From contig NZ_LNNH01000028.1 of assembly GCF_001542915.1 (NCBI RefSeq), positions 1 through 64,000 of the forward strand: a DNA stretch of 64,000 nucleotides, in the 5' to 3' direction. Positions 2,440 to 19,659 of this stretch are shown piece after piece. This stretch comes from Peribacillus simplex. GTDB lineage: Bacteria > Bacillota > Bacilli > Bacillales > DSM-1321. The notes under the pieces are model-generated. The model saw only the letters and a list, made by a program, of their open reading frames with translations. It was not told the DNA's origin and did no database searches. Numbering within the stretch: the first letter of the stretch is position 1; every line of letters begins with the position of its first letter. The position numbers and the translations under genes are program-made.

Positions 2440-4053
2440 TTGGAAAAATTGTCTTTAGGCGTGTTTAATTTTATGATTTACGTTCCTTTATCAAGTGATT
2501 CAGTTGGAATTGCAGAGGTAAAACCGGATTACAGGTTATATGTCATGGCTCCATTAGGTGAAATAACGGATTGGGACGCATTTAAAGCCAAGTTAATGCA
2601 GTTGAAGGAAAATGGCGTATATGCCATAACGACAGATATTTGGTGGGGATTGGTCGAGAGCAAAAAGGATAACCAGTTTGATTGGTCTTATTATAAAAGG
2701 TATGGCGCGGCAGTGGAATCCTCCGGTTTAAAATGGGTGCCCATCTTATCCACACATCAATGTGGCGGGAATGTGGGTGATGAATGCAGCTATCCCATCC
2801 CAAGCTGGCTCTGGAATAAAGACTCTGCCGAAAACATGTCATTCAAGAGCGAAAGCGGTTATTGGAATAAAGAAGTGCTAGCCCCTTGGTGGGAAGGGAC
2901 CGCAACGCAATACGATGAATTGTACTGCTCCTTTGCAAAGAATTTCGCAGATAAAAAAGATTTGATTGCAAAAATATATTTAAGTGCAGGACCAGCTGGC
3001 GAACTAAGATATCCCTCCTACCAGAATGCAGATGGTTGGGACTTTTCAGAAAGAGGGAAGCTTCAAGCTTATACAGAAGGTGCGAAAAGGGATTTCAGGC
3101 TTTCGATGCAATCAAAATATATATCGATAAAAAAACTCAATGCAGCTTGGGGAAAAAGATATAAGAACTGGGATGAGATTCAGCCTCCAGGTAACGGGGA
3201 TTCATTTTTCATGAAAGGCGGTGAAATCGACACCGTCTTTGGAAAAGATTTTATGCAGTGGTATCAGGGTTCTCTGGAAAAACATCTTTCAAGAATCTCG
3301 AAATTGGCCCATAAACATTTTGATGAAGTCTTCGATGTTCCCATTGGTGCTAAAATCTCAGGTGTCCATTGGAAAATGAATGATCCGATCATGCCGCATT
3401 CAGCAGAGTATAGTGCCGGGTACTATAACTATTCCCAACTTCTTGATCAATTCAAGGAATCAAAAATGGCCCTTACCTTTACATGCTTGGAGATGGGGGA
3501 CACCGACGCGCAAACGGCACCATACTATAGCTCACCAAAGACGTTGGTTGCCCAAATTGCCACATTGGCCAAAGAAAAGGGTATTTCGCTAAATGGCGAA
3601 AACGCGCTGCCCATCAGCAATGAAGGCGGATTTGATAATGTAGCGGAAATGGTTTACAACTTCGGTTTTGACGGTTTCACTTTCCTGAGGATGTCCTATT
3701 TATTCGATGACACAGGACAACCAACAGCTGAGTTACCAATGCTGGCGAATAAATTGCCAAGCAAATCGATTCCGGTTACATTCACGGTTGAAAATGTCCC
3801 TGCCGCACATGGTGTATACTTAATTGGTGACCGGGGAGAAATCGGCAGGTGGAATCCAGTCGATTATGAATACAAGCTCACTCAACGTGAAAAGGGCAGC
3901 TGGAGCGGAACTTTCCGTTTAGCGGCGGATCGATATTATCAATTCAAGTTCGTCATGAAAGATGAAAATGGTAAGATTACTTGGCAACAAGGTCCGAATG
4001 AAAGTCTTACAACCCCAGCCACCGGCAAAGGAGCTTATACATTCTTCTGGTAA
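2440..4053 (+). CDS. GH14 beta-amylase with C-terminal starch-binding domain
   Basis: Releases beta-maltose from the non-reducing ends of starch. Residues 30-440 form the GH14 barrel: YAITTDIWWG near 61, STHQCGGNVGDEC near 104, the catalytic acid Glu188 in AGELRYPS, GAKISGVHW near 303, and the catalytic base Glu387 in LNGENAL. The last 100 residues are a CBM20-type starch-binding domain (VTFTVENVPA, GVYLIGDRGEIGRW). The start is TTG at 2440 behind GAGGGAGGGATG. The N-terminus is odd: only about 27 residues precede the catalytic domain, with no basic n-region and a broken hydrophobic stretch, so a normal signal peptide is not obvious although the enzyme is usually secreted. It is monocistronic, under the promoter at 2325. 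Confidence 0.93.
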   Translation: MEKLSLGVFNFMIYVPLSSDSVGIAEVKPDYRLYVMAPLGEITDWDAFKAKLMQLKENGVYAITTDIWWGLVESKKDNQFDWSYYKRYGAAVESSGLKWVPILSTHQCGGNVGDECSYPIPSWLWNKDSAENMSFKSESGYWNKEVLAPWWEGTATQYDELYCSFAKNFADKKDLIAKIYLSAGPAGELRYPSYQNADGWDFSERGKLQAYTEGAKRDFRLSMQSKYISIKKLNAAWGKRYKNWDEIQPPGNGDSFFMKGGEIDTVFGKDFMQWYQGSLEKHLSRISKLAHKHFDEVFDVPIGAKISGVHWKMNDPIMPHSAEYSAGYYNYSQLLDQFKESKMALTFTCLEMGDTDAQTAPYYSSPKTLVAQIATLAKEKGISLNGENALPISNEGGFDNVAEMVYNFGFDGFTFLRMSYLFDDTGQPTAELPMLANKLPSKSIPVTFTVENVPAAHGVYLIGDRGEIGRWNPVDYEYKLTQREKGSWSGTFRLAADRYYQFKFVMKDENGKITWQQGPNESLTTPATGKGAYTFFW

Positions 4054-5779: not shown

Positions 5780-7840
5780 ATGAAGATCGAAGGAATAGGA
5801 GGGTTTTTAATTAAAAAGAAGCTTTTGGCATTTTTATGTATAGTTTGTTATGCATTCATTTGGGAAGCATCAGGGACTTACAATGTTTTTGCTGAACAAA
5901 AAACCTATATCATTGCGGTAGAGAGTGCTCTTCCCCCATTTTCATTCAAAAATGAAGCCAATGAACCAAGTGGCATCAATATTGATCTGATGGAGAAAAT
6001 AGCGAAAAATAACGGCACTGTTTTCGAATATCTTCCAATGGAAATGCAAGAAGCGGAAAAACGGTTAATGAACGGTTCCGTCGATGCCATCGTCGGGAGT
6101 ACCTATAGTATCGAAAAAGATAATCAGCTAGATTTCACCCAGCCTTATTTTACCATGTCCCAATCAATCATCATCCCAAGCAATAGGAAAAAGGATATCC
6201 ATACGTTAACGGACTTACGCGATGCCCATGTTGTCCTTGACCCCACAACACCTGTAATCAGCACTTTTCTCAATATGAGGAATACAAACTTAACGACTGT
6301 TTCGAATCAATACTCCGGAATGTTAACGTTAATGAATGACCGAGCAGATGCTTTCATAGGCAACAAATGGACGGCGGAATATTATTTAAAAAAACTCCGC
6401 CAGGGGGAAAACTACATCATTCTTGATGAGGTCATTGAACCTGCGGATTATACGATTGCTGTTAAGCAAGGAAATCAAACGCTTCTATTCATGATGGACA
6501 ATGCCCTCACTGAACTTAAAGCCAATCGTCAATTAAATGGGATCATCGATAAATGGCTCATGCCGCAATCCGATCAAAAAATCGCCAGACTGGAGCAATT
6601 CATTTTCTGGCTGACCATGATTTTAACCGCCGGAGCCATTATTCTTTTCATTATTTACATATGGAATCAAAAGCTAAAAAAATCCGTCCTTGCCCAGACT
6701 CGGACATTGCACCTATTGAATGAGGATTTAGAGAAACAACGGCAAAAACTGGACAATAGTAAAGCTTTCAAAGAACAAATCTTAAACAACATCAATACAG
6801 GCATCATCACCTTCGATCACGATTTCCTGATTACAAGCTGCAATGAAAAAGCATCAGAGATCCTGAACATTTCCAAGGAAATGATTCTGAATATTCCAAA
6901 TCATACTCAGCTATTGAAGATGTTCGAAGCTACCCATCCAGAACAAAGAGAAAAAGTGGGCACAGGTTCCTTTCGGATCCGGGTTTTGCATGGACGGCAT
7001 GAACAGAAGGAGATTTCCTATTCGATGCATAAGATGTACAGTACGGAAAAGATACATACCGGGTACTTACTGTCCATGAATGATGAAACGGAGAAGAAAA
7101 CGTTGGAGAAAAAATTGGTCACACAGGAAAAGCTGCACGCACTTGGTCAACTGGTTGCCGGGGTTGCCCATGAAATTAGAAACCCGTTAACATCGATAAA
7201 AACATTCATTGATTTACTTCCAAGCAAATACGATAAGCCTCAATTCCGGCAAGTTCTAATGGAGCACTTGCCCACTGAAGTCAACCGTCTCAATGCAATC
7301 GTTACCGATTTAATTGAATATGCACGTCCACGACCGCCGAATATAACGAATTGCCCTGCTCATGAACTTATTTCATTACTTGCTTTCCATAAGGTGACAA
7401 TGGCAAAAAAGCAAATACATTTTGAACAGGCAATAGATGAGGACCTTATCTTTTATATAGATTTACAGCAGATTCACCAAGTTATCCTTAATCTGGTATT
7501 GAATTCGATTCAGGCTGTGGAGGAAAGAGAGGTAAAAACGATTACCATTTCCATTGATAGAGAAAACGAGAAAACCGGGCGGATTACCATATCGGATTCA
7601 GGCATTGGCATCAAACAGGATGAGCAGAACCACATTTTTGAACCTTTTTACACAAATAAAGATAAGGGAGTCGGCTTGGGCCTAACGTTATCGTATAGGC
7701 TAATCAAAGAAAACAATGGAGATATCCAAGTTAAAAGCCATCCTGATTGTGGAACGACATTCATCATTTTGCTGCCTTTATATACGAATGAACTCAAGAA
7801 GGAGGAGAAATCTGATGTTACATGTATTAGTGATCGATGA
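5780..7840 (+). CDS. Sensor histidine kinase with periplasmic-binding-type sensor domain
   Basis: Membrane kinase of about 680 residues. Order: signal/anchor segment (KKKLLAFLCIVCYAFIW), an extracytoplasmic SBP_bac_3-type ligand domain (about 41-262; TYIIAVESALPPFSF, PSGINIDLMEKIA), one membrane segment (about 273-296), a PAS-like region (335-435), and a transmitter with phospho-acceptor His464 in GVAHEIRNPLTS. The ATPase shows NSIQAVEE, DSGIGI and GVGLGLTLSY. The ligand domain suggests it senses a small amino- or carboxylate-type solute directly. The gene overlaps the response-regulator gene by 26 bases. The ATG at 5780 has no ribosome site, while AGGAGGG at 5797-5803 sits six bases before an in-frame ATT at 5810, which may be the true start and would give MKKKLLAFL. 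Confidence 0.93.
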   Translation: MKIEGIGGFLIKKKLLAFLCIVCYAFIWEASGTYNVFAEQKTYIIAVESALPPFSFKNEANEPSGINIDLMEKIAKNNGTVFEYLPMEMQEAEKRLMNGSVDAIVGSTYSIEKDNQLDFTQPYFTMSQSIIIPSNRKKDIHTLTDLRDAHVVLDPTTPVISTFLNMRNTNLTTVSNQYSGMLTLMNDRADAFIGNKWTAEYYLKKLRQGENYIILDEVIEPADYTIAVKQGNQTLLFMMDNALTELKANRQLNGIIDKWLMPQSDQKIARLEQFIFWLTMILTAGAIILFIIYIWNQKLKKSVLAQTRTLHLLNEDLEKQRQKLDNSKAFKEQILNNINTGIITFDHDFLITSCNEKASEILNISKEMILNIPNHTQLLKMFEATHPEQREKVGTGSFRIRVLHGRHEQKEISYSMHKMYSTEKIHTGYLLSMNDETEKKTLEKKLVTQEKLHALGQLVAGVAHEIRNPLTSIKTFIDLLPSKYDKPQFRQVLMEHLPTEVNRLNAIVTDLIEYARPRPPNITNCPAHELISLLAFHKVTMAKKQIHFEQAIDEDLIFYIDLQQIHQVILNLVLNSIQAVEEREVKTITISIDRENEKTGRITISDSGIGIKQDEQNHIFEPFYTNKDKGVGLGLTLSYRLIKENNGDIQVKSHPDCGTTFIILLPLYTNELKKEEKSDVTCISDR

Positions 7841-9188
7841 TGAACCCGCCATTTGCAACGCGCTTAGCTTTGCGTTGGAAGACTCCTATCAAGTCACGAC
7901 AACGACAGACCCGGATGAAGGCCTTCGGAAGATTGAAAATCAAACATTTGATATCGTTTTGCTTGATTTGAGGATAGGCAATAAAAGCGGGCTTGATATC
8001 CTTCTGAAAATCAAACAACTCGCTCCTAACGTGGCAGTCATCATGATGACTGCCTATTCATCCATCGATACTTCCATCGAGGCCATAAAAAAAGGAGCCT
8101 ATTATTATATTGAGAAGCCTCTAAATATAAAAGAACTTTCGATGCTTATGATGAGGGCAGCCGAATTCAATCAGATGACGAATCAATTGGAGACACTTCA
8201 TGAAGAATTGGAGAAACAAAGGGGAATGGGGAATTTTCTTGGTAATAGCAGGGCGATGCAGCGCATTTTTTCCATGATCGATAGAGTGAAAGATATTGAT
8301 TCCAGTGTGCTTATTACAGGTGAAAGCGGAACGGGCAAAGAGCTTGTAGCCAGGAACATCCATACGCTGGGAAGAAGGAAAAATAAGCCCATGCAGATCG
8401 TCAATTGCGCGGCTATTCCCGACATGCTGCTGGAATCTGAATTGTTCGGGTATGAAAAGGGAGCTTTTTCAGGTGCCACCCAGAGGAAGGATGGGAAGTT
8501 CGTTGCCGCTAATGGAGGCATTCTATTTCTTGATGAAATTAGTGAAATGCCCTTGCCCCTCCAAGCCAAATTATTACGGGTGCTGCAGGAACGGGAAGTG
8601 ACTCCCCTCGGTTCCAATACGAAACGATCATTGGATGTCCGCATAATCAGTGCGGCCAATAAAAATCTGGAGCAAATGGTGATGGACGGGGAGTTCCGGG
8701 AGGATTTGTTTTTCAGGCTGAATGTCATTCCCATTTCCATGCCGCCGCTTCGGGAAAGAAAAGAAGATTTGCCGATCCTGATGGATTATTATATGAAAAA
8801 ACACGCAAGGGACATGAACAGGGAAGAGAAGACATTTTCGGCGGCCGCACGGCAGATCCTGCTCGATTATCATTATCCCGGGAATGTCCGCGAGCTTGGG
8901 AACATGATCGAATATGCGGTAGCCCTATCAAATTCTACATGTATGGAGGATACAGACCTGCCACAATATGTTCAAGAACAAAAGTTCGTCTTTCAGCCGG
9001 ATGTGTTGGAGGATGATCGAAACAGTTTTCGCGTTCCACTTGGCATGTCCATGAAAGACATAGAGGAAAAAGTCATTACGGCCACTCTGCAATATTGTAA
9101 GAACCATCGGCAAAAAACCGCGCAAGTCCTAAAAATATCGGAAAGAAGCCTGCGTGATAAAATTAAACTCATTTCCCAAAAAGAATAA
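7815..9188 (+). CDS. NtrC-type sigma-54 response regulator
   Basis: A 457-residue partner of the preceding kinase. The receiver domain (1-120) has the acidic pair Asp9-Asp10, phospho-acceptor Asp51 in LLDLRIG, Thr79 and Lys101. The AAA+ domain (about 141-370) has Walker A GESGTGKE (169-176), the sigma-54 contact loop GAFSGA (216-221, Ser in place of the usual Thr), Walker B GGILFLDEI and the R-finger region FREDLFFRLN. A Fis-type helix-turn-helix ends the protein (KTAQVLKISERSLRDKI). It should bind an upstream enhancer and drive sigma-54 (SigL) polymerase. The well-formed -24/-12 promoter at 9300, right after this gene, is its obvious target. B. subtilis SigL activators I know of lack a receiver domain, so this architecture is unusual for the group. 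Confidence 0.95.
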   Translation: MLHVLVIDDEPAICNALSFALEDSYQVTTTTDPDEGLRKIENQTFDIVLLDLRIGNKSGLDILLKIKQLAPNVAVIMMTAYSSIDTSIEAIKKGAYYYIEKPLNIKELSMLMMRAAEFNQMTNQLETLHEELEKQRGMGNFLGNSRAMQRIFSMIDRVKDIDSSVLITGESGTGKELVARNIHTLGRRKNKPMQIVNCAAIPDMLLESELFGYEKGAFSGATQRKDGKFVAANGGILFLDEISEMPLPLQAKLLRVLQEREVTPLGSNTKRSLDVRIISAANKNLEQMVMDGEFREDLFFRLNVIPISMPPLRERKEDLPILMDYYMKKHARDMNREEKTFSAAARQILLDYHYPGNVRELGNMIEYAVALSNSTCMEDTDLPQYVQEQKFVFQPDVLEDDRNSFRVPLGMSMKDIEEKVITATLQYCKNHRQKTAQVLKISERSLRDKIKLISQKE

Positions 9189-9199
9189 ACTAAAGGCTG

Positions 9200-9241
9200 A
9201 ACCGGCAAATTTTTCTGGGGATTCGGAAAATATTGCCGGTT
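9200..9241. promoter_or_regulatory. Long inverted repeat: terminator or enhancer site
   Basis: AACCGGCAA (9200-9208) and TTGCCGGTT (9233-9241) are perfect complements, and pairing continues inward through the ATTTTTC / GGAAAAT flanks with one offset. The T tract after it is short. It lies 60-100 bp upstream of the -24 element, where an NtrC-type activator usually binds. It could end the regulator transcript, act as enhancer, or do both. Confidence 0.55.
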
Positions 9242-9299
9242 TCCTATAGATTTGCATCGATACATCGGCAAAATTTCCATGATGAAGCGATTACTTCAC

Positions 9300-9317
9300 T
9301 TGGCATGTTACTTGCAT
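9300..9317 (+). promoter_or_regulatory. Sigma-54 (-24/-12) promoter of the TAXI-ABC-GlcDF operon
   Basis: TTGGCATGTTACTTGCAT places GG at 9302-9303 and GC at 9314-9315, exactly 12 bases apart, as in the TGGCACN5TTGCW consensus. Transcription is expected near 9327, leaving an 18-base leader that carries the GAGAGGAG ribosome site of the next gene. It lies directly downstream of the sigma-54 activator gene. Confidence 0.85.
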
Positions 9318-9344
9318 CTAAATAGAGTAAGAGAGGAGATCACT

Positions 9345-10349
9345 ATGAAAAATGGAACACTCTTTCTACCATTCATTTTGCTATTTTGTTTCATAACGGG
9401 ATGTTCTTTCATGAATGAGCAGCAGGAAATCTCTCAACCTGCTTCTGCCCTGAGACAGGGACAACCAGATTCAAGCGGACAGGATTTGTCGAATCGGATG
9501 CTAATCATAGCAACCGGGGACATGTCAGGTGTTTATTTTACCGTAGGCCAGAGACTGTCTGCGTTGTACGAAAGATATAACGGAGCCGTGTCGGGGACAC
9601 AGGTCACACAAGCTTCCATCGAAAATACGGAGCTAGTCAGCCAGCACAGGGCCGAAATCGGCTTTACGACAGTGGACGTACTAGAGTTGCCTTCTACGAA
9701 CAAATCAAGATTACGAGCATTGACGACCCTCTATTCCAACTATGTTCAAATTGTTACCACAAAACGTCATGATATTGATTCCTTGGATGATTTAGCTGGA
9801 AAAAGGGTTAGTGTGGGTACAAGCGGCAGCGGCACTAGACTAATTGCAGAACGAATCCTTTTGGAAACGGATTTACAGCCTGAACAATTGAATTTATCTT
9901 ATCTTTCTTTTACCCAAGCTGCCGAAGCGCTGCAAAATGGTTCCATTGATGCGGCTTTCTTCTCTTCAGGCATCCCGAATTATGAAATCGCTTACACATC
10001 CAAGCAAACCGAGCTCTCAATCATTCCGATACCGAAAGACATTATTGACCGTTTGCAGAAGCAATACGGAGTGTACGCTCAAAATGAAATCCCGGTTGAT
10101 ACATACAAGGGAATGCAGAAAGAGGTCCAAACGATTTCCATCAAAAATGTCTTGGTCACTTACGATGAAATGTCCGATCGGCATGCTTACAATCTTGTGA
10201 AAACATTATATGAGCATCTGCCGGAGCTGCAGGATACACATCCCGCCGCTTCTGACATTTCATTGAATGACGCAGCAGGGCCAGTTCCGCTCGATTTTCA
10301 TTCTGGTGCCATGAAATATTTTACCGAACATGGATTGATGAAAAAATGA
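9345..10349 (+). CDS. TAXI-family solute-binding lipoprotein
   Basis: An extracellular receptor of 334 residues anchored by lipid: signal peptide with lipobox FITGC at about residue 20, then a Ser/Gln-rich linker. The mature domain opens with MLIIATGDMSGVYFTVGQRLS and has GKRVSVGTSGSGTRLIAERIL and NGSIDAAFFSSG, the fold and motifs of TAXI proteins that feed TRAP transporters with carboxylates such as glutamate or 2-oxo acids. No TRAP membrane subunits (DctQ/DctM or fused) follow; an ABC importer does. It may be a co-receptor, or part of the sensing system by touching the kinase sensor domain. It is the first gene of the sigma-54 operon, starting at ATG 9345 behind GAGAGGAG. Confidence 0.9.
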   Translation: MKNGTLFLPFILLFCFITGCSFMNEQQEISQPASALRQGQPDSSGQDLSNRMLIIATGDMSGVYFTVGQRLSALYERYNGAVSGTQVTQASIENTELVSQHRAEIGFTTVDVLELPSTNKSRLRALTTLYSNYVQIVTTKRHDIDSLDDLAGKRVSVGTSGSGTRLIAERILLETDLQPEQLNLSYLSFTQAAEALQNGSIDAAFFSSGIPNYEIAYTSKQTELSIIPIPKDIIDRLQKQYGVYAQNEIPVDTYKGMQKEVQTISIKNVLVTYDEMSDRHAYNLVKTLYEHLPELQDTHPAASDISLNDAAGPVPLDFHSGAMKYFTEHGLMKK

Positions 10350-10368
10350 AAAAATGGAGGAAATGAGT

Positions 10369-11469
10369 ATGAAGAAAATAATGAGTTTACTATCCATCAT
10401 CATCTTGGTTGCGCTTGCAGGTTGCGGAAACCCGACTCCACAAAAACCGGGCGAATCCGTACAAACTAATTCAGGAGAAAAAGGAGAGAAAAAAATAACG
10501 ATTGCCGGGAATGGAGGAGTCATCGAAAGTGCCATTCGTGATGTCATCGCTCCTAAGTTCAAAGAAGAAACGGGAATAACCGTCAATTATATTTCCGGCT
10601 TATCGGGAGAAATCCTATCGAAAGTGGAATTACAGAAAAACGCGCCACAAATCGATATCGCCTTTTTTGTACCAGTGGACGTAATCCGGGCAAAGGAGAA
10701 GGAGCTGATCGAACCGGTTGATGAGTCCAATGTGCCGAATATGAAATCGGTGGATCCGCGTTTCATTCCGGCGGAGAAGGCAGCTGCTCCCGTATTCGGG
10801 TTAGTCATTGCACCGGCGTATAATACGGAAACCTTCAAAAAGGAGAAGTTGAAACCGATTGAATCGTGGAATGATTTGGTCTCACCGGATTACGAGGGGA
10901 AAACGGCCTTTGCGGATATTACGAATGACTGGGGCTTCAATACCCTTAATGGTTTAGCGATTTCAAATGGAGGAAGTACGGAAAACATCGAACCAGGGCT
11001 TGAAAAGGCAAAAGACCTTGCTGGCTATTCCAATACGTTTTATAAAAATTCAACACAAATGATGCCTGCGATCCAGCAAGGGGCCGCGGATATAACGGTC
11101 ATGGGCAGTTATTCAATAGGTGAACTGGCCGTATCCGGAATTCCCATCAAAATGGCTGTACCGAAAGAAGGCGTACCGCTGCAGGCTTTCAGCGCCGGGT
11201 TAGTGAAGAATACACCCAACAGTAAAGAGGCCCTAGAGTTCATTAATTATTTAGTCAGTAAAGAGGCCCAACAACTCATTTCCGAAAAAGGATTTTATCC
11301 GACGGTGGAAGGGATGAAGATACCGGAGAAATACGAAGAATCAATCGGACTCAAGGAAAGTGACAAAACATTCAAACCTGATTTCGCCAAGTTCGCTGAA
11401 ATTCGTGCTGAGGTGTCGGACAGATGGGCAAAAGAGGTTACTCCTGAATTAGGAACAAAACTTAAATAA
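10369..11469 (+). CDS. ABC importer solute-binding lipoprotein (iron/thiamine/polyamine type)
   Basis: A 366-residue lipoprotein with lipobox LAGC at about residue 20 and a class-II periplasmic-binding fold: KITIAGNGGVIESAIRDVIAPKFKEETGI, APQIDIAFFVPVDV, ESWNDLVSPDYEGKTAFADIT, and the C-terminal SKEALEFINYLVSKEAQQ. This layout is common to extracellular binding proteins of the iron(III), thiamine, 2-aminoethylphosphonate and polyamine-type importers, so the ligand cannot be fixed. The ATG at 10369 follows GGAGG by seven bases; ATGs at 10354 and 10363 are less well placed. It is tightly spaced after the TAXI gene and before the ATPase gene. Confidence 0.9.
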   Translation: MKKIMSLLSIIILVALAGCGNPTPQKPGESVQTNSGEKGEKKITIAGNGGVIESAIRDVIAPKFKEETGITVNYISGLSGEILSKVELQKNAPQIDIAFFVPVDVIRAKEKELIEPVDESNVPNMKSVDPRFIPAEKAAAPVFGLVIAPAYNTETFKKEKLKPIESWNDLVSPDYEGKTAFADITNDWGFNTLNGLAISNGGSTENIEPGLEKAKDLAGYSNTFYKNSTQMMPAIQQGAADITVMGSYSIGELAVSGIPIKMAVPKEGVPLQAFSAGLVKNTPNSKEALEFINYLVSKEAQQLISEKGFYPTVEGMKIPEKYEESIGLKESDKTFKPDFAKFAEIRAEVSDRWAKEVTPELGTKLK

Positions 11470-11486
11470 AAAGGGGTGGAGGTAAC

Positions 11487-12305
11487 ATGGAAGTAGTGAA
11501 AACAGAGGCAGGAACCAACAGGATGTCTATGAAGTCCATTCACCGTTTCGAGTCAACCAAAAATGACGTGGAGATAAAAGGGGCATTCAAGCAGTTTGGC
11601 ACGAATGTTGTTCTGAATGGAATCGATCTCGAGGTGAAGCAAGGGGAGTTACTAACCCTTCTTGGCCCTTCAGGATGCGGCAAGTCCACCACCTTGAACC
11701 TCATCGCAGGATTCCTCGATGCGGATCGGGGCGAGGTCCATATCAAGGGCAATAATGTTACAAAGGTTCCCCCTTATAAAAGAGATTTAGGGATGGTTTT
11801 TCAAACGTATTCGCTTTTTCCCCATATGACAGTCTATGAAAATCTAAGTTTCGGGTTGAAACTGCGTAAAGTCGGAAAGTCCGAGCAAGAAAAGAAAATA
11901 AGCCAAGCGCTTGAATTGGTGAAAATGTCCGGGCTTGAGAATCGTTATCCGAGGGAGTTATCTGGGGGACAGCGCCAGCGTGTTGCCATTTCACGGGCAC
12001 TTGTCGTGGAGCCAGAGCTGCTTCTGCTGGATGAGCCCCTTTCAAACCTTGATGCCAAATTAAGGCATGAATTGAGGGCTGAGATCAAGCGACTGCAAAA
12101 GGAGATTGGCGTGACGACCATATTTGTCACCCATGACCAAGAGGAAGCCCTTTCCATGTCGGATCGAGTAGTGGTCATGAATGCAGGGAAAATTGAACAA
12201 ATCAGTACGCCGACTGACATATACAATCATCCCAAGACTGAATTCGTGTTTCAGTTCATCGGAAAATCGAATTGTTTTGAAGGGAACGTGTCAGCGGTGG
12301 ATTAA
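11487..12305 (+). CDS. ABC importer ATPase, nucleotide-binding part (cut short by an in-frame stop)
   Basis: Energises the importer encoded around it. All nucleotide-binding parts are present: Walker A GPSGCGKST, Q-loop MVFQTYSLFPHM, signature LSGGQRQRVAISRAL, Walker B LLLLDEPLSNLD and the switch TIFVTHDQ. The frame stops with TAA at 12303-12305 after NVSAVD, where relatives of the PotA/FbpC type continue into a TOBE domain. The same frame resumes without a shift and encodes that TOBE domain up to 12650, so one codon separates a 272-residue protein from the normal length of about 387. The short product may still work as an ATPase. ATG 11487 has GGTGGAGGT upstream. Confidence 0.92.
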   Translation: MEVVKTEAGTNRMSMKSIHRFESTKNDVEIKGAFKQFGTNVVLNGIDLEVKQGELLTLLGPSGCGKSTTLNLIAGFLDADRGEVHIKGNNVTKVPPYKRDLGMVFQTYSLFPHMTVYENLSFGLKLRKVGKSEQEKKISQALELVKMSGLENRYPRELSGGQRQRVAISRALVVEPELLLLDEPLSNLDAKLRHELRAEIKRLQKEIGVTTIFVTHDQEEALSMSDRVVVMNAGKIEQISTPTDIYNHPKTEFVFQFIGKSNCFEGNVSAVD

Positions 12306-12362
12306 CGGAAAATCACAGTCAAGTTAGGTTCTGACTTCGCTCATGTAGACGCTGGTAATATC

Positions 12363-12650
12363 ATGGGCGATGACGGTGATTTGAAACCGGGGGATGCGGT
12401 CAGGATATATATCAGGCCAGAAAAAATGGAGATCATCTCTGCGGAGGGAACATCATCTTCTCCGCCGTTGGATTTCCATCGTGCTCAAATCAGCCAAATC
12501 AATTACCTTGGTACGTCTTGGGAGGTCCATGTACTGCTACAAGGAAAGAGCATTCAAGTATTAACGGCCGCTTTCGATTCTTCATGGCAAAATGGAAGTG
12601 AGGTGTTTATCGGATGGAGCCCATCAGAAGTTATGCTAGTCAAGAAATAG
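12363..12650 (+). pseudogene. Detached TOBE domain of the ABC ATPase
   Basis: In the same reading frame as the ATPase gene and separated only by its TAA at 12303. It reads GDAVRIYIRPEKMEII, then a second beta motif with INYLGTSWEVHVLLQG and a final VFIGWSPSEVMLVKK, which is the usual regulatory and contact domain at the end of importer ATPases. The codons between (RKITVKLGSDFAHVD) also fit the family. An internal ATG at 12363 exists but has no ribosome site, so separate translation is doubtful. This is most simply a nonsense mutation in one gene, or a base-calling error. Confidence 0.8.
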
Positions 12651-13558
12651 AAACTAAGATGAATCCGCTTGAGCCGCAACAGGAACCTAAGTTCAAAAAA
12701 AGGAAAGTATGGGTGCCGGGTTTGCTGCTCTTAACGCCCATTCTGCTATTTATATTCGGTTTCTTCGTCATACCGATGTTATACATCTTATATTTAAGCT
12801 TCATTTCCACCGATAATCTTGGGGCGGAGGATGCGGTATATAGCTTGAAAAACTATACCCAATTATTTACCGATAGCTACTATCTATCCTCTTTATGGCT
12901 GACGGTAAAAATCAGTTTATATTCCGTATTGGTCGCTTTATTCCTAGGGTACCCTGTCGCTTTGACAATGGCAAGAAGTTCAGCGCGAATCAGGGGGTAC
13001 ATCACCCTCTTGATCGTCTCTCCGCTTTTGGTGAGTATCGTTGTGCGCAATTTTGGCTGGTACCTGCTGCTGCTGCCGAACGGAACGATCAATCAAACCT
13101 TGATGGCGCTCGGAATCATCAATGCGCCATTGAAACTTCTATTTTCGGAAATCGGAGTGGTGATCGGGCTCTCCAATGCCTACCTGCCGTTCATGATCCT
13201 ATCGATCGTTGCCAGCCTTTATAATATCGACCCTTCCCTGGACAAGGCGGGAGCCATACTAGGTGCAAGCCCTTTCAGAAGGTTCTTTTCGATAACCTTG
13301 CCGCTAAGCATACCAGGCATCGTATCGGGCTGCATACTTGTGTTCAGCTTATCGATGAGTGCGTATGTCACACCGGCACTCATGGGCGGAGCGAATGTGC
13401 CAGTCATGCCCGTTGTCATATACGACCAGATTAATAATCTGCTTCACTGGACATTCGGATCTGCCCTTTCTTATATTCTATTGGCAACGACGGTCCTTTC
13501 AGTGACCATTTTTACGAGAGTGTTTGAAAAAGGGAAATTCAAGGAGGTATTCCGATAA
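12614..13558 (+). CDS. ABC importer permease, PotB type
   Basis: First membrane subunit, about 314 residues with six predicted helices. The first is PGLLLLTPILLFIFGFFVIPMLYILYLSF near residue 35. The EAA loop that docks the ATPase is DKAGAILGASPFRRFFSITLPLSIPGI near residue 210. The start at 12614 is inside the end of the TOBE frame and has AGTGAGGTG eight bases upstream; ATG 12659 is an alternative with a poorer site. The protein resembles PotB/CysT-like permeases of the spermidine, iron and molybdate group. It overlaps the next permease gene at TAATG. Confidence 0.92.
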   Translation: MEPIRSYASQEIETKMNPLEPQQEPKFKKRKVWVPGLLLLTPILLFIFGFFVIPMLYILYLSFISTDNLGAEDAVYSLKNYTQLFTDSYYLSSLWLTVKISLYSVLVALFLGYPVALTMARSSARIRGYITLLIVSPLLVSIVVRNFGWYLLLLPNGTINQTLMALGIINAPLKLLFSEIGVVIGLSNAYLPFMILSIVASLYNIDPSLDKAGAILGASPFRRFFSITLPLSIPGIVSGCILVFSLSMSAYVTPALMGGANVPVMPVVIYDQINNLLHWTFGSALSYILLATTVLSVTIFTRVFEKGKFKEVFR

Positions 13559-14364
13559 TGAAAACGTTTGGCGGCCTTCGGATTGCAGTAGCCGTGTTAG
13601 CAATCATCTATATCTTGATTCCGCTGATTGTCGTTATCCCGGCATCTTTTACTAGCGCGAATTATCCTAGTTTTCCAGCTGATGGTTTTTCGCTGCAATG
13701 GTATACAAAAATACTGGAGCGTCCTGAATTTCTCGAAGCATTTTTGAACAGTGCAAAGTTTGCTGCGCTTGCGGCCCTTTTCTCGGTCATATTCGGGACC
13801 TTGGCAGCTCTTGGCATCGCAAAATATGAGATTCCGGGTAAATCCTATATTACAGCCCTTTTAACTTCTCCATTGAGTGTTCCGCAATTGGTTTTGGGGA
13901 TAGCCCTTTTAATGTACTTTACACCCATGATGCTGGCCGGGACGTCTACTGGTTTTTTAATTGCCCATATCGTCATTTGCATCCCCTATGTCATGCGGCT
14001 CGTGTTGACGGGTTTAAGCGGATTTGATTACAATCTTGAACGTGCTGCAGCCATACTGGGGGCCAACCCTTTGACTGTATTCCTGAAAGTGACGCTGCCG
14101 CTGATCGGATCTGCGGCCATATCGGGAGGTTTATTCGCCTTTTTGACATCGTTTGATAATGTGACGGTTTCCCTCTTTATGGTATCACCTGAAATGCGAA
14201 CGCTGCCGATCGAGATTTTTTCGCAAATGCAGGATGCCTATAATCCAATCGTCGCAAGCGTATCAAGCGTAGTCATTTTCATATCTGTGCTGCTGATCAT
14301 CATACTCGAAAAAATTCAAGGTGTCGGGAAGGTTTTCGGCGGTTCACATCATACAAACGGATAA
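13558..14364 (+). CDS. ABC importer permease, PotC type
   Basis: Second membrane subunit, 268 residues and about six helices, starting MKTFGGLRIAVAVLAIIYILIPLIVVIPASF. A large external loop with YPSFPADGFSLQWY follows, typical of PotC-like permeases. Its EAA loop is ERAAAILGANPLTVFLKVTLPLIGSA near residue 165. The ATG overlaps the stop of the previous gene (TAATG), giving translational coupling. With the binding protein and ATPase it makes a complete importer. Confidence 0.92.
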   Translation: MKTFGGLRIAVAVLAIIYILIPLIVVIPASFTSANYPSFPADGFSLQWYTKILERPEFLEAFLNSAKFAALAALFSVIFGTLAALGIAKYEIPGKSYITALLTSPLSVPQLVLGIALLMYFTPMMLAGTSTGFLIAHIVICIPYVMRLVLTGLSGFDYNLERAAAILGANPLTVFLKVTLPLIGSAAISGGLFAFLTSFDNVTVSLFMVSPEMRTLPIEIFSQMQDAYNPIVASVSSVVIFISVLLIIILEKIQGVGKVFGGSHHTNG

Positions 14365-14395
14365 CCGCTATGAACCTAGAAAGGAAGTGAAGCAC

Positions 14396-15802
14396 ATGGA
14401 GCAAGACGCCCTTGCTGCTCTTAGTCAGATCATTCCTGGGGATCGGATGTTCCTTGATTTGGCGGAGCGTTATTGTTATAGCTATGATGCTTCTTTTGGG
14501 GAGTATTTACCTGAAATTGTCATACAGCCTAAAAACGCGAAAGAAATCAGTGAGTTAGTGAAAATGGCCAATCTACACAAAATCCCCGTTTACCCTAGAG
14601 GATCGGGTACCTCTCTAAGTGGCGGCCCCTTACCTGTAAAGGGCGGGATGGTTCTTGATCTTACCCTTTTGCGAGATAAATTGTTTATTGACAGGGAAAA
14701 TATGCTCGCGATTGTGTCTCCAGGCGTGATTACGGCCACCATCCATCAAAAAGCCGACGAAGCGGGTTTGTTTTATCCACCTGACCCAAGCAGTTCCAAT
14801 GTGGCCACAATAGGCGGGAATCTATTGGAAAATTCGAGCGGACCAAAAGGGTTGAAGTATGGGACGACTAAAGAATATGTAATCGGATTGGAAGTGGTCA
14901 CGCCTACAGGGGAAATCATCCGTACCGGCGGAAAGACCGTGAAAAATGTTACCGGCTATGACTTGACCCGGTTAATTGTGGGTTCAGAGGGCACCTTGGG
15001 AATTGTGACGGAGGCGATCATCCGCTTGATTCCAAAACCGCAAAGCCAAAAAACATTCGTGGCCCATTTCAATCATTTCATTGACTCGGGCCATGCGATA
15101 ACAAGCATCTTATCGTCAGGAATCCTCCCTTCGGCCTTGGAATTAATGGATAATGCATGTATCCGTGCTGTCGAGAACTATCGCCCTTCAGGCTTGCCGC
15201 TACAAGCAGAGGCCATCTTGATCATCGAAGTCGATGGTCATCCGTTGGCAATTGAAGAAGAAATAAATAAATGCGCGGATATTTGCAAAGATAACGGGGC
15301 TTCCTACGTCAAGATTGCGGAAACGGAGGAGGAACGCCAAACCATTTGGAGTGCGCGTAAATGGGTATCCCCGGCCATTACTCAAATGGGGCCGACGAAA
15401 ATTTCGGAGGATGCCACGGTCCCGCGCAATCAAATTCCGGCAATGATGGAGAGATTACAGCAAATCCGCGATAAATATGAATTGAACTTGGTTGTTTTCG
15501 GTCATGCCGGTGATGGAAACTTACACCCGAACATCATTACCGATAAACGAAATAAAGCGGAAATGAAAAAAGTGGAGCTTGCCGTTAGTGAAATTTTTGA
15601 AGCAGCGATCGAACTGGGCGGAACGCTTTCCGGGGAACACGGAATCGGTACGTTGAAGTCACCCTATATGGAAATGGAATTAGGGGCAAATGGGGTAAAT
15701 ATGATGAAAAAAATCAAGGAAGCGTGGGATCCGAATAATATCTTGAACCCTGGTAAGATCTTTGCTGAAAAAGGTCAAACAAAGGTCGTGTTGCTCACAT
15801 GA
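14396..15802 (+). CDS. glcD: Glycolate oxidase FAD subunit (GlcD/YsfC type)
   Basis: A 468-residue flavoprotein of the FAD-linked oxidase family that oxidises glycolate, D-lactate or other 2-hydroxy acids. The FAD-binding domain (about 35-215) shows PRGSGTSLSGGPLPV, VSPGVITATIHQKADEAGL, FYPPDPSS, and TGGKTVKNVTGYDLT. The C-terminal substrate domain has VFGHAGDGNLHPNI and LSGEHGIGTLKSPYM, with conserved histidines. No GlcE-like third subunit is present; as in the B. subtilis YsfC-YsfD pair, only D and F subunits occur. ATG 14396 has AAGGAAGTG upstream. It overlaps the next gene by four bases (ATGA). Confidence 0.93.
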   Translation: MEQDALAALSQIIPGDRMFLDLAERYCYSYDASFGEYLPEIVIQPKNAKEISELVKMANLHKIPVYPRGSGTSLSGGPLPVKGGMVLDLTLLRDKLFIDRENMLAIVSPGVITATIHQKADEAGLFYPPDPSSSNVATIGGNLLENSSGPKGLKYGTTKEYVIGLEVVTPTGEIIRTGGKTVKNVTGYDLTRLIVGSEGTLGIVTEAIIRLIPKPQSQKTFVAHFNHFIDSGHAITSILSSGILPSALELMDNACIRAVENYRPSGLPLQAEAILIIEVDGHPLAIEEEINKCADICKDNGASYVKIAETEEERQTIWSARKWVSPAITQMGPTKISEDATVPRNQIPAMMERLQQIRDKYELNLVVFGHAGDGNLHPNIITDKRNKAEMKKVELAVSEIFEAAIELGGTLSGEHGIGTLKSPYMEMELGANGVNMMKKIKEAWDPNNILNPGKIFAEKGQTKVVLLT

Positions 15803-17124
15803 AGGCAGCTGCCACATCCAACCATGCAAATAGAGCGGTTGAACAATTGCACGCGAATGCTCATGACTGGACAAATCAATGCGTTAAATGCGGGTATTGC
15901 TTGCCAGCATGCCCCACCTACGAATCAATGGGCGTGGAATCCGCTTCACCACGGGGCCGAATCAACCTAGTCAAACTGGCTGCCGAGGGGAAAATAGATC
16001 TTCAAAAGGATTTAACGGAACCGATCGAGCTTTGTTTAGGTTGCCGCGCCTGTGAAACCGCCTGTCCTGTCGGTGTTCCTTACGGGCATATATTGGAGGC
16101 GGCAAAGGAAGCGATCGGAAATCGCCCGCCCAGCAGCGATAACATGACGAAGATGAAGAAACTGGCATTGGTTCACCTCTTTCCCTACCCTCGGCGAATG
16201 AATCTGCTCGGTAGCGGGGCCATGCTTTATCAAAAATCAGGGTTATCCAATCTTGTTCGTCAATCGAATCTGCTCTACAGGTTTTCACCGGTTCTTGCCC
16301 ATTTAGAACAAGCGCTTCCAGCCATCGAATCTCCCGCGAAACGGATCAGGGCGGGTACGCTGATACCTTCCAAAGGGGCAACCCGAATGAGAGTGGCATT
16401 CTACACAGGCTGCATCATGGATTCGCTGATGTCACGAATCAACCGTCTTACCATCGAGCTGCTTACCCTTGTGGGATGTGAGGTCATACTTCCGGAAAAT
16501 CAAAGCTGCTGCGGTGCCCTCCATTCCCATCAAGGCGAAGCGAAGCAAGCGAAAGCTCTGGCGAAAAGGAACATCCAGGCTTTCATGCAGATGGATGCAG
16601 AGGTAATCGTCAGTAATGCCGGGGGCTGCGGTGCATCACTTCGGGAATATGAACAGCTCTTGGCTGATGATTGCGAGTGGTCAGGGGCAGCAAAAGATTT
16701 CTCCAAGAAATCAAAAGATATCAGCCAAATTCTTCATCAGTTAGGGCCGCTCCCTTTTACTGAAGAATATCATGGCATCGTTACTTTCCAAGATTCCTGC
16801 CACTTGCGCAATGTCCAGAAGGTGCAAACGGAGCCGCGTTTATTATTGCAAGCGATACCAGGTATCACTTACGTGGAAATGGCGGGATTTGACCGTTGCT
16901 GTGCATCGGGAGGCATATACAACCTTCTCCATTTTGAGGAATCGATGAAAATCCTGGATGGAAAAATGAACGACCTTAAAGAAACAAGGGCCACTACAGT
17001 CATAACGGTTAATCCTGGCTGCCAAATGCAAATGAGCATTGGCATCCAAAGGGATGGGGCGGCTAACTCTATTAAAAGCTTGCATCTCGTTGAAATTCTT
17101 GCCAAGGCCTGTGGCTTGAATTGA
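15799..17124 (+). CDS. glcF: Glycolate oxidase iron-sulfur subunit (GlcF/YsfD type)
   Basis: A 441-residue electron-transfer subunit for the preceding flavoprotein. Two 4Fe-4S motifs lie in the first 100 residues: CVKCGYCLPACP and CLGCRACETACPVGV. The two cysteine-rich CCG domains follow, with CCGALHSHQGE (about 235) and DRCCASGGIYNL near the end, plus TGCIMDSLMS and DSCHLRN. Electrons would pass on to the membrane quinone pool. It is the last gene of the sigma-54 operon, starting at the ATGA overlap. No clear terminator follows. Confidence 0.94.
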   Translation: MKAAATSNHANRAVEQLHANAHDWTNQCVKCGYCLPACPTYESMGVESASPRGRINLVKLAAEGKIDLQKDLTEPIELCLGCRACETACPVGVPYGHILEAAKEAIGNRPPSSDNMTKMKKLALVHLFPYPRRMNLLGSGAMLYQKSGLSNLVRQSNLLYRFSPVLAHLEQALPAIESPAKRIRAGTLIPSKGATRMRVAFYTGCIMDSLMSRINRLTIELLTLVGCEVILPENQSCCGALHSHQGEAKQAKALAKRNIQAFMQMDAEVIVSNAGGCGASLREYEQLLADDCEWSGAAKDFSKKSKDISQILHQLGPLPFTEEYHGIVTFQDSCHLRNVQKVQTEPRLLLQAIPGITYVEMAGFDRCCASGGIYNLLHFEESMKILDGKMNDLKETRATTVITVNPGCQMQMSIGIQRDGAANSIKSLHLVEILAKACGLN

Positions 17125-18241: not shown

Positions 18242-19465
18242 TTATACAGCTTGTTTAGGATAATGAACTTGTTTAGGTAGAGCAGTTGGCCTCAAAGCCG
18301 CGAATAGGATAACAAAAACGAATACACTAACACCTAGAATTAAATAGGTTTTAGAAAAGCCTATCGTATCGTACCAATGACCAAGTATTGGCGAAAGAAT
18401 GGCTTGACCCACTTGAGACACGAAATAATATCCTACAATATACATCGTAGCCGAGAACTTAGCATTGAAATTAGCATCGATAAATTTTAAGATAGCAATC
18501 AACATAATCGGAAGTTCGAAAGAATGTAACATTTTCATTGTAGAAATGCCAATCGGTTCCACCGCTAATCCCGATCCAGTAATACGAATTGCCATGAGTA
18601 ACCCTGCCAGGACCAAACTTTTCTTGGCGCCGATTTTATTAACGATAAACGGGGCAATAAACATCATGCCTGCTTCTAAAAAGATTTGTATAGAATTTAG
18701 ATAACCAAACATTTGATTTCCTTGTCCGCTGGTAGAGAATAAGGAAGCATAATAAACGGGAAATTGTTGATCATAGACAGAATAAATACAAGCCACGCCT
18801 AGAACATACACCATAAATATCCAAAAAGTTTTGTTCTTTAATAAAGCTAATGTATCTGTTAATTTAATTGAATCCGTTTTCTTTTGTTCTTCTTCTGAAA
18901 TTTGAACGTTCATTAATAGAAGAAAGAGAATAAGGAAGATACTACATGCCGATGCAACCCAAAAGCTGATATGAGGATTGATGTTAAACAGTTTCCCCGA
19001 AAAGAAGGCTGCAGCTGCAGCACCTAATGATCCCCACATCCTTACTTGTCCGTACTCGAAATGATATTTTCTGCCGGTGCGTTCGGCGTATGATTCAATA
19101 GCTCCAAACGATGCTAGTAATGTGGCACTGAGATAAACACTTCCGGTAATGGCGCCTAAAATAGGATTGTAATGTAATAGAGGACTATAAATATAAATGA
19201 AAAACGGACCAATTAGCATTATCAAAAATGTTATAACCCACAACAAATGTTTCCTCAATCCAATTTTATCGGAAATGAAACCGTATAGTGGTTGGAAACA
19301 AAGGGTGGCGATAGCATTAATGGAAAAAATCGTACCTACTTGGGCGCCACTTAGCTCTAATGTTTGTCCTAACCATATAGCAAATAAAGACATGGCAGAT
19401 GTAGAAGCAAAAAAATAAAAAAAAGTAAAGCCGCTTAAAGACCAATAATTTAAATTCTTTTTCAT
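18242..19465 (-). CDS. LacY/CscB-like oligosaccharide:H+ symporter
   Basis: A 407-residue major-facilitator permease with twelve predicted helices, of the oligosaccharide:proton symporter group that includes LacY, RafB and the sucrose carrier CscB. It opens MKKNLNYWSLSGFTFFYFFASTSAMSLFAIWL and keeps the family segments GQVRMWGSLGAAAAAFFSG, FGYLNSIQIFLEAGMMFIAP and MYIVGYYFVSQVGQAIL. It would import intact, non-phosphorylated sugar, so the nearby GH32 would act on sucrose or a similar fructoside itself. The gene has its own regulatory region: a 16-bp operator at 19615 and a cre-like site at 19554. It reads in the same direction as the LacI gene upstream of it. Confidence 0.92.
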   Translation of the reverse strand: MKKNLNYWSLSGFTFFYFFASTSAMSLFAIWLGQTLELSGAQVGTIFSINAIATLCFQPLYGFISDKIGLRKHLLWVITFLIMLIGPFFIYIYSPLLHYNPILGAITGSVYLSATLLASFGAIESYAERTGRKYHFEYGQVRMWGSLGAAAAAFFSGKLFNINPHISFWVASACSIFLILFLLLMNVQISEEEQKKTDSIKLTDTLALLKNKTFWIFMVYVLGVACIYSVYDQQFPVYYASLFSTSGQGNQMFGYLNSIQIFLEAGMMFIAPFIVNKIGAKKSLVLAGLLMAIRITGSGLAVEPIGISTMKMLHSFELPIMLIAILKFIDANFNAKFSATMYIVGYYFVSQVGQAILSPILGHWYDTIGFSKTYLILGVSVFVFVILFAALRPTALPKQVHYPKQAV

Positions 19466-19553
19466 GTTCTCAATCCCTTATATGTATTTTTTTCCATGTG
19501 ATTTTCAAAACTACACTTTCCCAATAACGTAATAGTTAGAAAATTACACAAGG

Positions 19554-19568
19554 TTGAAGCGCTTTCTT
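19554..19568 (-). promoter_or_regulatory. cre-like catabolite control site
   Basis: TTGAAGCGCTTTCT matches about 11 of 14 positions of the CcpA-box consensus TGWAANCGNTNWCA and holds the near-palindrome GAAGCGCTTTC. It lies about 90 bp upstream of the permease start, suggesting glucose repression. Confidence 0.5.
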
Positions 19569-19614
19569 TTTTGATGAAGGAAGTATAAGGTCCATTGAAA
19601 CAAAATAAAGGGCA

Positions 19615-19630
19615 TCCGAAACGTTTCGGA
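19615..19630. promoter_or_regulatory. LacI-family operator 1 (permease gene)
   Basis: TCCGAAACGTTTCGGA is a perfect 16-bp palindrome with the central CG typical of LacI-family sites. Identical to the site at 22504 and one base from the site at 20680. It lies between the regulator and permease genes. Confidence 0.85.
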
Positions 19631-19659
19631 AAATATATAAAACTAAAAACTATTCATTT

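Follow-up and report, generated by a model that had tools for sequence, protein, structure and literature searches.

The locus at 5780-17124 of the window (the whole stretch of DNA that was analysed, 64,000 nucleotides) is read here as a two-component, sigma-54-type operon for the uptake of a C5 dicarboxylate that lacks an amino group, with 2-oxoglutarate and 2-hydroxyglutarate as the best guesses, in which a TAXI-family solute-binding protein serves the histidine kinase and the importer is exchangeable; we give this reading a probability of about 0.48. In relatives, the same sensing genes stand beside different importers, which suggests that the TAXI protein is mainly a sensor. The linkage of the genes and the promoter are well supported; the ligand class and the role of the TAXI protein we infer.

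The kinase, the NtrC-type regulator, the −24/−12 promoter and the TAXI, ABC-importer, GlcD and GlcF genes named by an earlier sequence-only reading were all present in Pfam and NCBIfam searches and a promoter scan (Table 1), with the count of genes behind the promoter corrected from six to seven. The regulator, with its receiver, sigma-54 AAA+ and HTH domains, adjoins the histidine kinase as in NtrC-type sigma-54 two-component systems; by our own reading of the ribosome site its gene starts at 7815, so that 26 bases are shared with the kinase gene. With 260.9 bits against TIGR02122 (cut-off 84.35) and 223.6 against PF16868 (cut-off 27), the TAXI gene belongs to the TAXI family. The ABC genes score below the curated NCBIfam cut-offs of the PotABCD and 2-AEP importer families (for example PhnT2, 360.1 vs 457.7; PotB, 171.3 vs 348; PotC, 162.4 vs 326; PhnS, 65.3 vs 395.3). 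No gltS was found beside the TAXI gene among the genes at 5780-17124, so the locus is not of the TAXI-GltS transporter type.

Table 1 Features of the locus, in window coordinates
Feature	Position	Strand	Domains and basis
Sensor histidine kinase	5780..7840	+	Extracytoplasmic SBP_bac_3 (Venus-flytrap), TM, PAS, HisKA, HATPase (Pfam, NCBIfam; alignment of 12 orthologues)
NtrC-type response regulator	7815..9188	+	Receiver, sigma-54 AAA+ (GAFSGA), Fis-type HTH (HTH_8) (Pfam, NCBIfam)
Degenerate first copy of proposed operator CGGCA-N5-TGCCG	9203..9217	.	By eye; beyond reach of 1-mismatch scan
Proposed regulator operator CGGAAAATATTGCCG	9224..9238	.	1 mismatch to CGGCA-N5-TGCCG
−24/−12 sigma-54 promoter TGGCATGTTACTTGCA	9301..9316	+	Pattern scan; ahead of TAXI gene in 20/20 relatives
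TAXI-family solute-binding lipoprotein, proposed kinase receptor	9345..10349	+	Pfam, NCBIfam; ITGC lipobox by eye
ABC importer solute-binding protein	10354..11469	+	SBP_bac_8; iron/polyamine/2-AEP-like (Pfam, NCBIfam)
ABC importer ATPase, nucleotide-binding part, ending at in-frame TAA	11487..12305	+	Pfam, NCBIfam
Remainder of ATPase gene past stop	12306..12650	+	TOBE_2 domain (Pfam)
ABC importer permease 1, PotB-like	12614..13558	+	Pfam, NCBIfam
ABC importer permease 2, PotC-like	13558..14364	+	Pfam, NCBIfam
GlcD-like FAD-linked 2-hydroxyacid oxidase subunit, accessory	14396..15802	+	Pfam, NCBIfam
GlcF-like iron-sulfur subunit, accessory	15799..17124	+	Pfam, NCBIfam

The promoter proposed directly behind the regulator was borne out: its pattern matches once in the 64 kb, where 0.05 matches are expected from shuffles, and 26 times genome-wide vs 5 for the pattern read backwards. 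Sigma-54 itself is encoded in the window's genome, by two genes. Within 420 bases behind the regulator, no strict −24/−12 site was found in 10 of the 56 kinase loci scanned (L013, L093, L094, L108, L109, L110, L112, L116, L132 and L133), and L013, L110, L112 and L116 carry such a site elsewhere in the locus. The candidate operator motif CGGCA-N5-TGCCG lies behind the regulator in 43/56 loci, the window among them, with 60 matches in 7.1 kb there vs 42 in 1.16 Mb elsewhere, and it precedes the promoters of TRAP, ABC and MFS loci alike. The repeat could be the terminator of the regulator gene rather than an operator, as a T-run follows it in several loci; however, by our own reading no T-run follows it in the window or in Peribacillus loci, L004 to L010 among them.

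The order kinase-regulator-promoter-TAXI-ABC is kept in 20/20 loci of relatives, in which the presence of TAXI is by construction since the loci were picked by TAXI match. The sequence-only reading had described one module that senses, imports and oxidises its substrate. The sigma-54-type sensing and uptake part of it holds, with conserved linkage, but GlcD and GlcF lie outside the conserved core: 13 of the 20 loci have both over full length, though with interrupting frameshifts in L008, one has a remnant of GlcD and six have neither. In their place stand LhgO in L012 and an SDR in L013 to L015.

Across 397 genomes surveyed within the order, 47 kinase places were counted, of which 45 were readable (the second place of G034 was unfetched and G207 lies at a contig end; G225 is split across two contigs and G239 stops at a contig end). 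Kinase, regulator and TAXI occur together in 41 of these 45 loci with a varying importer, namely TRAP in 26, ABC in 9 and a KgtP-like MFS carrier in 3, while in the other 3 a TAXI-TRAP pair lies ahead of the kinase-regulator pair and two of these bear a second TAXI behind. Two relatives (G002 and G003) keep the kinase, regulator, promoter and ABC importer and show no TAXI match in the genome at E 1e-10. TAXI is also absent from the three GltS-linked kinase-regulator paralogues that were read and from 3/12 loci of other classes. The sequence-only reading had left the TAXI protein as co-receptor for either the kinase or the ABC importer; the kinase fits better as its partner and the importer less well, because TAXI stays with the kinase and regulator whether the importer is TRAP, ABC or MFS.

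The absence of TRAP membrane subunits, noted earlier for the locus, extends to the whole genome of the window, where TRAP_fused (TIGR02123) has no match; no TAXI-TRAP partner for the TAXI gene was found. TRAP_fused likewise has no match in the three MFS-locus genomes. A DctM search of the window's genome gave four weak places, three of them above the Pfam threshold with 29.1 bits as the highest score, and these were rejected as TRAP subunits on their best NCBIfam scores, which are to DASS-, YfcC- (two) and GntP-like carriers. In the TAXI tree, rooted on TAXI-TRAP pairs, the MFS loci are nested in the TRAP loci (99.3/100), and the ABC, MFS and part of the TRAP loci form one clade (100/100). The trees omit L008 (frameshifts), L015 (almost a duplicate of L014), L113, L120, L134 and L135 (contig ends), repeat fetches (L042, L044 to L049, L097, L139 to L144) and L099, and L116 is missing from the kinase-regulator tree (regulator frame broken).

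The dN/dS of TAXI (0.13-0.20) is close to that of the kinase (0.10-0.15) and higher than the values for the ABC binding protein (0.035-0.06) and the permeases (0.016-0.037); dS had reached saturation in L012 and in the greater part of L018. GlcF (0.09-0.17) and the TOBE part (0.12-0.16) evolve at about the pace of TAXI, and the rate argument for a tie between TAXI and the kinase is therefore unspecific. When TAXI distances were correlated with those of the kinase domains, the PAS domain ranked highest over all loci and the kinase sensor domain was not singled out. A predicted TAXI structure (mean pLDDT 60) was set aside.

In the mechanism that we propose, the membrane-anchored TAXI lipoprotein would bind the acid outside the cell, and its loaded form would dock on the flytrap domain of the kinase, which, judging from the domain families, would phosphorylate the NtrC-type regulator. 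The regulator would bind the conserved CGGCA-N5-TGCCG repeats, which lie some 60-100 bases upstream, and thereby activate the sigma-54 polymerase at 9301-9316. TAXI, the ABC importer and GlcDF would be made together; the importer would carry the acid in via its own binding protein, and GlcDF could act as oxidase on a 2-hydroxy acid. An ABC importer would have taken the place of the original TRAP permease in this lineage, and the TAXI gene would have stayed with the kinase. More generally, the sequences make it possible, at somewhat less than even odds, that a TAXI transport binding protein now works solely as receptor for a sigma-54 two-component system, with TRAP, ABC and MFS importers swapped around a fixed trio and the ligand class, operator and promoter kept.

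Instead of being a sensor, the TAXI protein might deliver ligand, as an additional binding protein, to whichever transporter is present (ABC here, MFS elsewhere). In excerpts of PMC12344293, TAXI is tied to the secondary carrier GltS, including by natural fusions, and the TAXI and ABC genes stand behind a single promoter. However, this is unlikely in view of the importer's own binding protein in 20/20 loci, the slower evolution of that protein and of the permeases, the persistence of TAXI with the kinase where the transporter is an MFS carrier, and the extra TAXI genes of L110, L112, L148 and L149, which adjoin the kinase or regulator and have no permease immediately after them. MFS carriers are not known to work with a binding protein. 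Alternatively, the kinase could sense the ligand alone via its own flytrap domain, the TAXI gene being a relic of a lost TRAP transporter. G002 and G003 manage without TAXI, and the TAXI distance relative to the regulator AAA+ is about 2.1 in ABC loci vs 1.2 in TRAP loci (calculated as ratios of means), as though constraint had been lost. Yet TAXI matches are unbroken in 20/20 loci, down to about 48% identity and under purifying selection, and the pocket residue Y45 is kept in 21/21 ABC-linked TAXI proteins. Furthermore, amino-acid binders of the flytrap domain's family use an arginine, and by our own reading of the alignment the kinase domain does not conserve it. We consider this reading quite improbable.

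The choice of ligand rests on the TAXI pocket and on neighbouring genes. Q93 and E125, two of the residues with which VcGluP holds the amino group of glutamate (PMC11574862, in excerpt), are replaced in 53/53 kinase-linked TAXI proteins of the order-level set; by alignment, the window's protein has T and N at these places, unlike the VcGluP-type glutamate site, and it keeps Y45. The ligand inference is moderate because no more than 54% of TAXI proteins have Q93, E125A costs VcGluP only 1.3-fold, and Y45, which also contacts the amino group, is kept. The neighbours found in relatives, LhgO, a KgtP-like carrier and a TAXI-like gene with KorABC and SucCD, together with GltS behind paralogous kinase-regulator pairs, point to C5 dicarboxylates; the KgtP-like carriers score 507 and 509, under the family cut-off of 550.

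The sequence-only reading had favoured glycolate or another 2-hydroxy/2-oxo acid. An operon for sensing, uptake and oxidation of glycolate (or D-lactate) would suit GlcD, whose nearest solved relatives are glycolate oxidase (319 bits) and LctD (314 bits), and which reaches 500.6 bits against TIGR00387 GlcD, though under the cut-off of 567.9. PRK11274 GlcF is also under its cut-off (226.2 vs 333), and no separate GlcE gene is present among the genes read at 5780-17124. Against such an operon stand the incomplete retention of GlcDF, its replacement by LhgO or an SDR, the TAXI ligands named in excerpts of PMC11574862 and PMC12344293 (glutamate and kin, or 2-oxoglutarate), and the C5-dicarboxylate type of the MFS and GltS carriers beside like kinase-regulator pairs. 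Glycolate is weakened to one possibility, and an improbable one, with GlcD still most like glycolate and lactate enzymes. As a D-2-hydroxyglutarate enzyme, GlcD is disfavoured by its sequence (148 bits to that dehydrogenase). No pathway is claimed from the neighbours in L099, where the CoA-transferase is under the NCBIfam cut-off. For a racemase-like neighbour, a PDB sequence search gave only chance-level matches, and its model (pLDDT 89) had Asp/Glu racemase folds as matches, with E 1.1e-8 at best, which do not settle the substrate.

Several known systems share parts of this arrangement. DctB of Bacillus subtilis is of the DctP type and not TAXI, and DctS-DctB-DctA is not known to involve sigma-54. 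As in our proposal, that system needs an accessory receptor with the kinase for C4-dicarboxylate sensing, but DctA, the transporter, itself belongs to the sensor (PMC6978683, excerpt). MifS-MifR of Pseudomonas aeruginosa, which is NtrC-type, RpoN-dependent and responds to 2-oxoglutarate, similarly drives a C5-dicarboxylate carrier; by contrast with the window and its ABC importer, the excerpted text mentions no binding protein, and the locus numbers place PA5511-PA5512, the regulator genes, apart from the carrier gene PA5530 (PMC4482717). In Bordetella pertussis, TAXI-GltS also has TAXI without TRAP membrane subunits, but TAXI is proposed there to feed GltS, and the terms 'histidine kinase' and 'two-component' are absent from the main text (PMC12344293, otherwise in excerpt). 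AgtSR-AgtABCD of P. aeruginosa likewise combines an SBP_bac_8-type ABC importer and a kinase in one cluster; however, the cluster as described in the excerpt has no TAXI gene, the tested binding proteins failed to bind the kinase domains, and the proximity of a binding-protein gene to a kinase gene does not always mean a functional link (PMC11113362). TAXI-TRAP loci of other Bacillota have the same kinase-regulator-TAXI order and, in most, the operator motif, but carry a TRAP_fused permease where the window has the ABC importer.

Like kinases, regulators, operators and TAXI proteins with three unrelated importers form a natural experiment, in which a TAXI protein serving a kinase instead of a permease becomes testable. 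For a set of Bacillota two-component systems, the analysis predicts the regulator site, the promoter and the class of ligand, and, if true, it would explain some TAXI genes without TRAP partners.

In this assembly, an in-frame TAA at 12303-12305 cuts the ABC ATPase gene, and the importer may be crippled in this strain by the interruption. The stop is absent from 22/22 compared loci, including one genome of the same species.

In the loci of the order, the importer beside the kinase, regulator and TAXI genes (the trio) is exchanged. A kinase search of 397 genomes of the order (E 1e-75) gave 47 places in 43 genomes, and 45 of the 47 were readable, one being not fetched and one stopping at a contig end. 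TAXI is accompanied by TRAP at 26 of the 45 readable places (one split over two contigs), by an ABC importer at nine and by an MFS carrier at three; the other places hold ABC without TAXI (1/45), GltS without TAXI (3/45) or a TAXI-TRAP pair upstream of the kinase-regulator pair (3/45), of which two have a second TAXI gene behind the regulator and the third is cut by a contig end. Against TRAP_fused (cut-off 321), the permeases behind TAXI in L092, L093, L095 and L108 reached 754 to 765 bits; the other TRAP permeases were assigned by similarity to one of these four or by the TRAP_fused genome search. Of the three MFS carriers, two were compared with PRK10406 (KgtP) and reached 507 and 509 bits, below the cut-off of 550; the third shares 98% identity with one of these two. 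The GltS of L117, placed after a hutG gene, scored 363 bits (cut-off 311). In L117, L137 and L138, all from the window's genus, a paralogous kinase-regulator pair with its own -24/-12 site precedes hutG and gltS, L117 being the locus whose families were scanned.

With a support of 100, the kinase-regulator tree (55 rows, unrooted, LG+G4) separates the ABC loci, with or without TAXI, from those with TRAP, MFS or GltS. The two ABC loci lacking TAXI branch nearest the TRAP side, and the MFS loci lie among the TRAP loci, with support of 99-100 for the clade and 52 for the exact sister. When rooted with TAXI-TRAP pairs that lack this kinase, the TAXI tree (59 rows) has one clade uniting the ABC and MFS loci with some of the TRAP loci (100/100), with the MFS loci nested inside TRAP (99.3/100) and weak support for the unity of the ABC group (11.1/62). 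The simplest reading is that TRAP is ancestral and was later replaced by ABC and by MFS, and that TAXI was lost in the relatives G002 and G003.

The sequence-only reading held that the window's TAXI protein lacks a TRAP partner, and this stood: a TRAP_fused search of the window's genome gave no match, and neither did that of a same-species genome or of the three MFS genomes. In all, 9 of the 20 genomes searched had a match above cut-off. In the ABC genomes G016, G004 and G005 the sole such match adjoins a different TAXI gene; other ABC genomes, G014, G020, G294 and G177 among them, have matches only far below cut-off. A DctM search of the window's genome found four weak places, whose best matches are DASS-, YfcC- and GntP-like carriers.

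From a phylum sample of 398 genomes, 12 further genomes outside the order were read. TAXI with TRAP occurs in 8/12, Liv-type ABC genes in 2/12 and a lone kinase in 1/12; two of the eight carry a further TAXI next to the kinase. In the remaining genome (L155), a TAXI-like gene (32.6 bits with PF16868, cut-off 27), KorABC and SucCD come after the same kind of kinase-regulator pair, and no transporter gene intervenes; KorABC and SucCD together would convert 2-oxoglutarate to succinate. In L156 and L158, the Liv-type importer genes lie behind the same kind of kinase-regulator pair (binding protein scanned in L156).

All genes of the window's module share one direction and may form a single transcript. 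The -24/-12 promoter was recovered with the strict pattern TGGCAYRN4TTGCW, which matches once in the window (0.05 expected) and 26 times across the genome, versus 5 for the control. The genome carries two sigma-54 genes, on G000:C25 (L050) and G000:C12 (L051), each exceeding the rpoN cut-off, and the promoter would be sigma-54-dependent. The ABC ATPase gene is intact at the position of the window's in-frame stop in 22 compared loci (20 loci, the same-species genome G018 and G014); since it is open in all of them, the break is seen in the window's assembly alone.

Features of the window and of two compared loci (domains by Pfam and NCBIfam)
Feature	Positions	Description
Beta-amylase-like gene	2440-4053	upstream; named by eye from translation
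Module	5780-17124	
Kinase		SBP_bac_3, PAS, HisKA, HATPase
Regulator		receiver, sigma-54 AAA+, HTH_8
Remaining module genes		TAXI protein; SBP_bac_8 protein; ABC ATPase; two permeases; GlcD-like and GlcF-like subunits
Proposed operator	9224-9238	degenerate copy 21 bases upstream
-24/-12 promoter	9301-9316	
In-frame TAA in ATPase gene	12303-12305	between nucleotide-binding and TOBE parts
Interval lacking racemase-like gene	14364-14396	
MFS sugar carrier and LacI-type regulator	18242-20670	downstream; named by eye from translation
Racemase-like gene, L004	15077-15763	
Second TAXI and TRAP_fused permease, L015	16479-19725	permease 726 bits; after ABC module and SDR gene

Between regulator and promoter lies the repeat CGGCA-N5-TGCCG, which the regulator may bind. 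With at most one mismatch, it has 60 matches in the 7,127 bases that follow the regulator versus 42 in 1,157,623 other bases, a ratio that overstates the case because related loci are compared and the motif was derived from these very regions. Stronger evidence comes from the fixed 5-base spacer and from the repeat's presence in other classes, where 7 of 12 loci (L148 to L151, L153, L157 and L158) have it beside the kinase, regulator or promoter. The repeat occurs in 19/21 ABC, 21/25 TRAP and 3/3 MFS loci, and was absent behind the regulator, at the same tolerance, in ABC-without-TAXI (0/2), TAXI-TRAP-kinase (0/2) and GltS (0/3) loci; in L112 it instead precedes the first TAXI promoter. Catabolite-repression-like sites lie near the promoter in 10/21 ABC, 2/2 ABC-without-TAXI, 14/25 TRAP and 3/3 MFS loci, and in none of the TAXI-TRAP-kinase (0/2) or GltS (0/3) loci nor in the window.

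The TAXI protein may contact the kinase. Against L043, L004 and L023 in turn, dN/dS was 0.143, 0.132 and 0.199 for TAXI, 0.152, 0.117 and 0.099 for the kinase, and 0.059, 0.035 and 0.040 for the ABC binding protein (permeases 0.016 to 0.037); GlcF (0.170, 0.089, 0.104) and TOBE (0.157, 0.122, 0.125) are about as fast, so TAXI's pace is not peculiar to the kinase. According to excerpts of the VcGluP study (PMC11574862), the glutamate amino group is held by contacts with three side chains, Y45, Q93 and E125, whose removal lowers affinity 213-, 990- and 1.3-fold, respectively, and Q93 is present in 54% of TAXI proteins. In our order-level alignment of kinase-linked TAXI proteins, Y45 is kept in 53/53, the Q93 position is M, T or S and the E125 position is N; among TAXI proteins from TRAP pairs lacking this kinase, Q is found in 4/6 and E in 4/6, and among those of other classes in 0/10 and 1/10. 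Since Q93 and E125 are replaced, the ligand would be an acid without an amino group. The TAXI ligands named in excerpts of PMC11574862 and PMC12344293 are either 2-oxoglutarate or glutamate and related compounds. The LhgO genes near the trio and the KorABC-SucCD set of L155 favour a C5 acid. Against a C5 acid, GlcD is most similar to glycolate oxidase and LctD, and the ABC binding protein is closest to iron and polyamine binders. Among the matches listed by a literature search, mainly outside subscription journals, there was no paper on a TAXI protein with a kinase partner or an ABC importer.

The linkage read as a module from the window alone is conserved in relatives. A TAXI query against genome contigs gave 20 loci (frameshifts in L008; L014 and L015 near copies of each other) from Peribacillus, Heyndrickxia, Siminovitchia, Cytobacillus and Bacillus; the window's genus has 36 genomes in the comparison set, its named close relatives being Peribacillus. 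Kinase, regulator, TAXI, ABC binding protein, ATPase with TOBE and both permeases keep the same order in 20/20, and a -24/-12 site always precedes TAXI (L015 has another further on). The genes behind the permeases vary. GlcD and GlcF are full length in 13/20 loci (frameshift-broken in L008), with a GlcD remnant in one and neither in six. A convergent Asp/Glu-racemase-like gene with the conserved motif LTCSAFN follows the second permease in 16/20 and is absent in L043, as in the window; according to the model, its product would have an Asp/Glu-racemase fold. An SDR gene lies behind the second permease in L013 to L015. The trio has LhgO nearby in L095, L098, L118 and L012, the last of these apparently being the same genome as L097; the scanned L012 copy, also behind the second permease, scored 584.9 bits versus a cut-off of 299, and L098 combines the racemase-like gene, LhgO, GlcD and GlcF. 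With its second TAXI and TRAP_fused permease beside the ABC module, L015 has both kinds side by side in one genome. L099 (G005:C13) holds the ABC binding protein a second time (73%) but has no permeases with it; ahead of this copy lie racemase-like, CoA-transferase, enoyl-CoA hydratase and acyl-CoA dehydrogenase genes.
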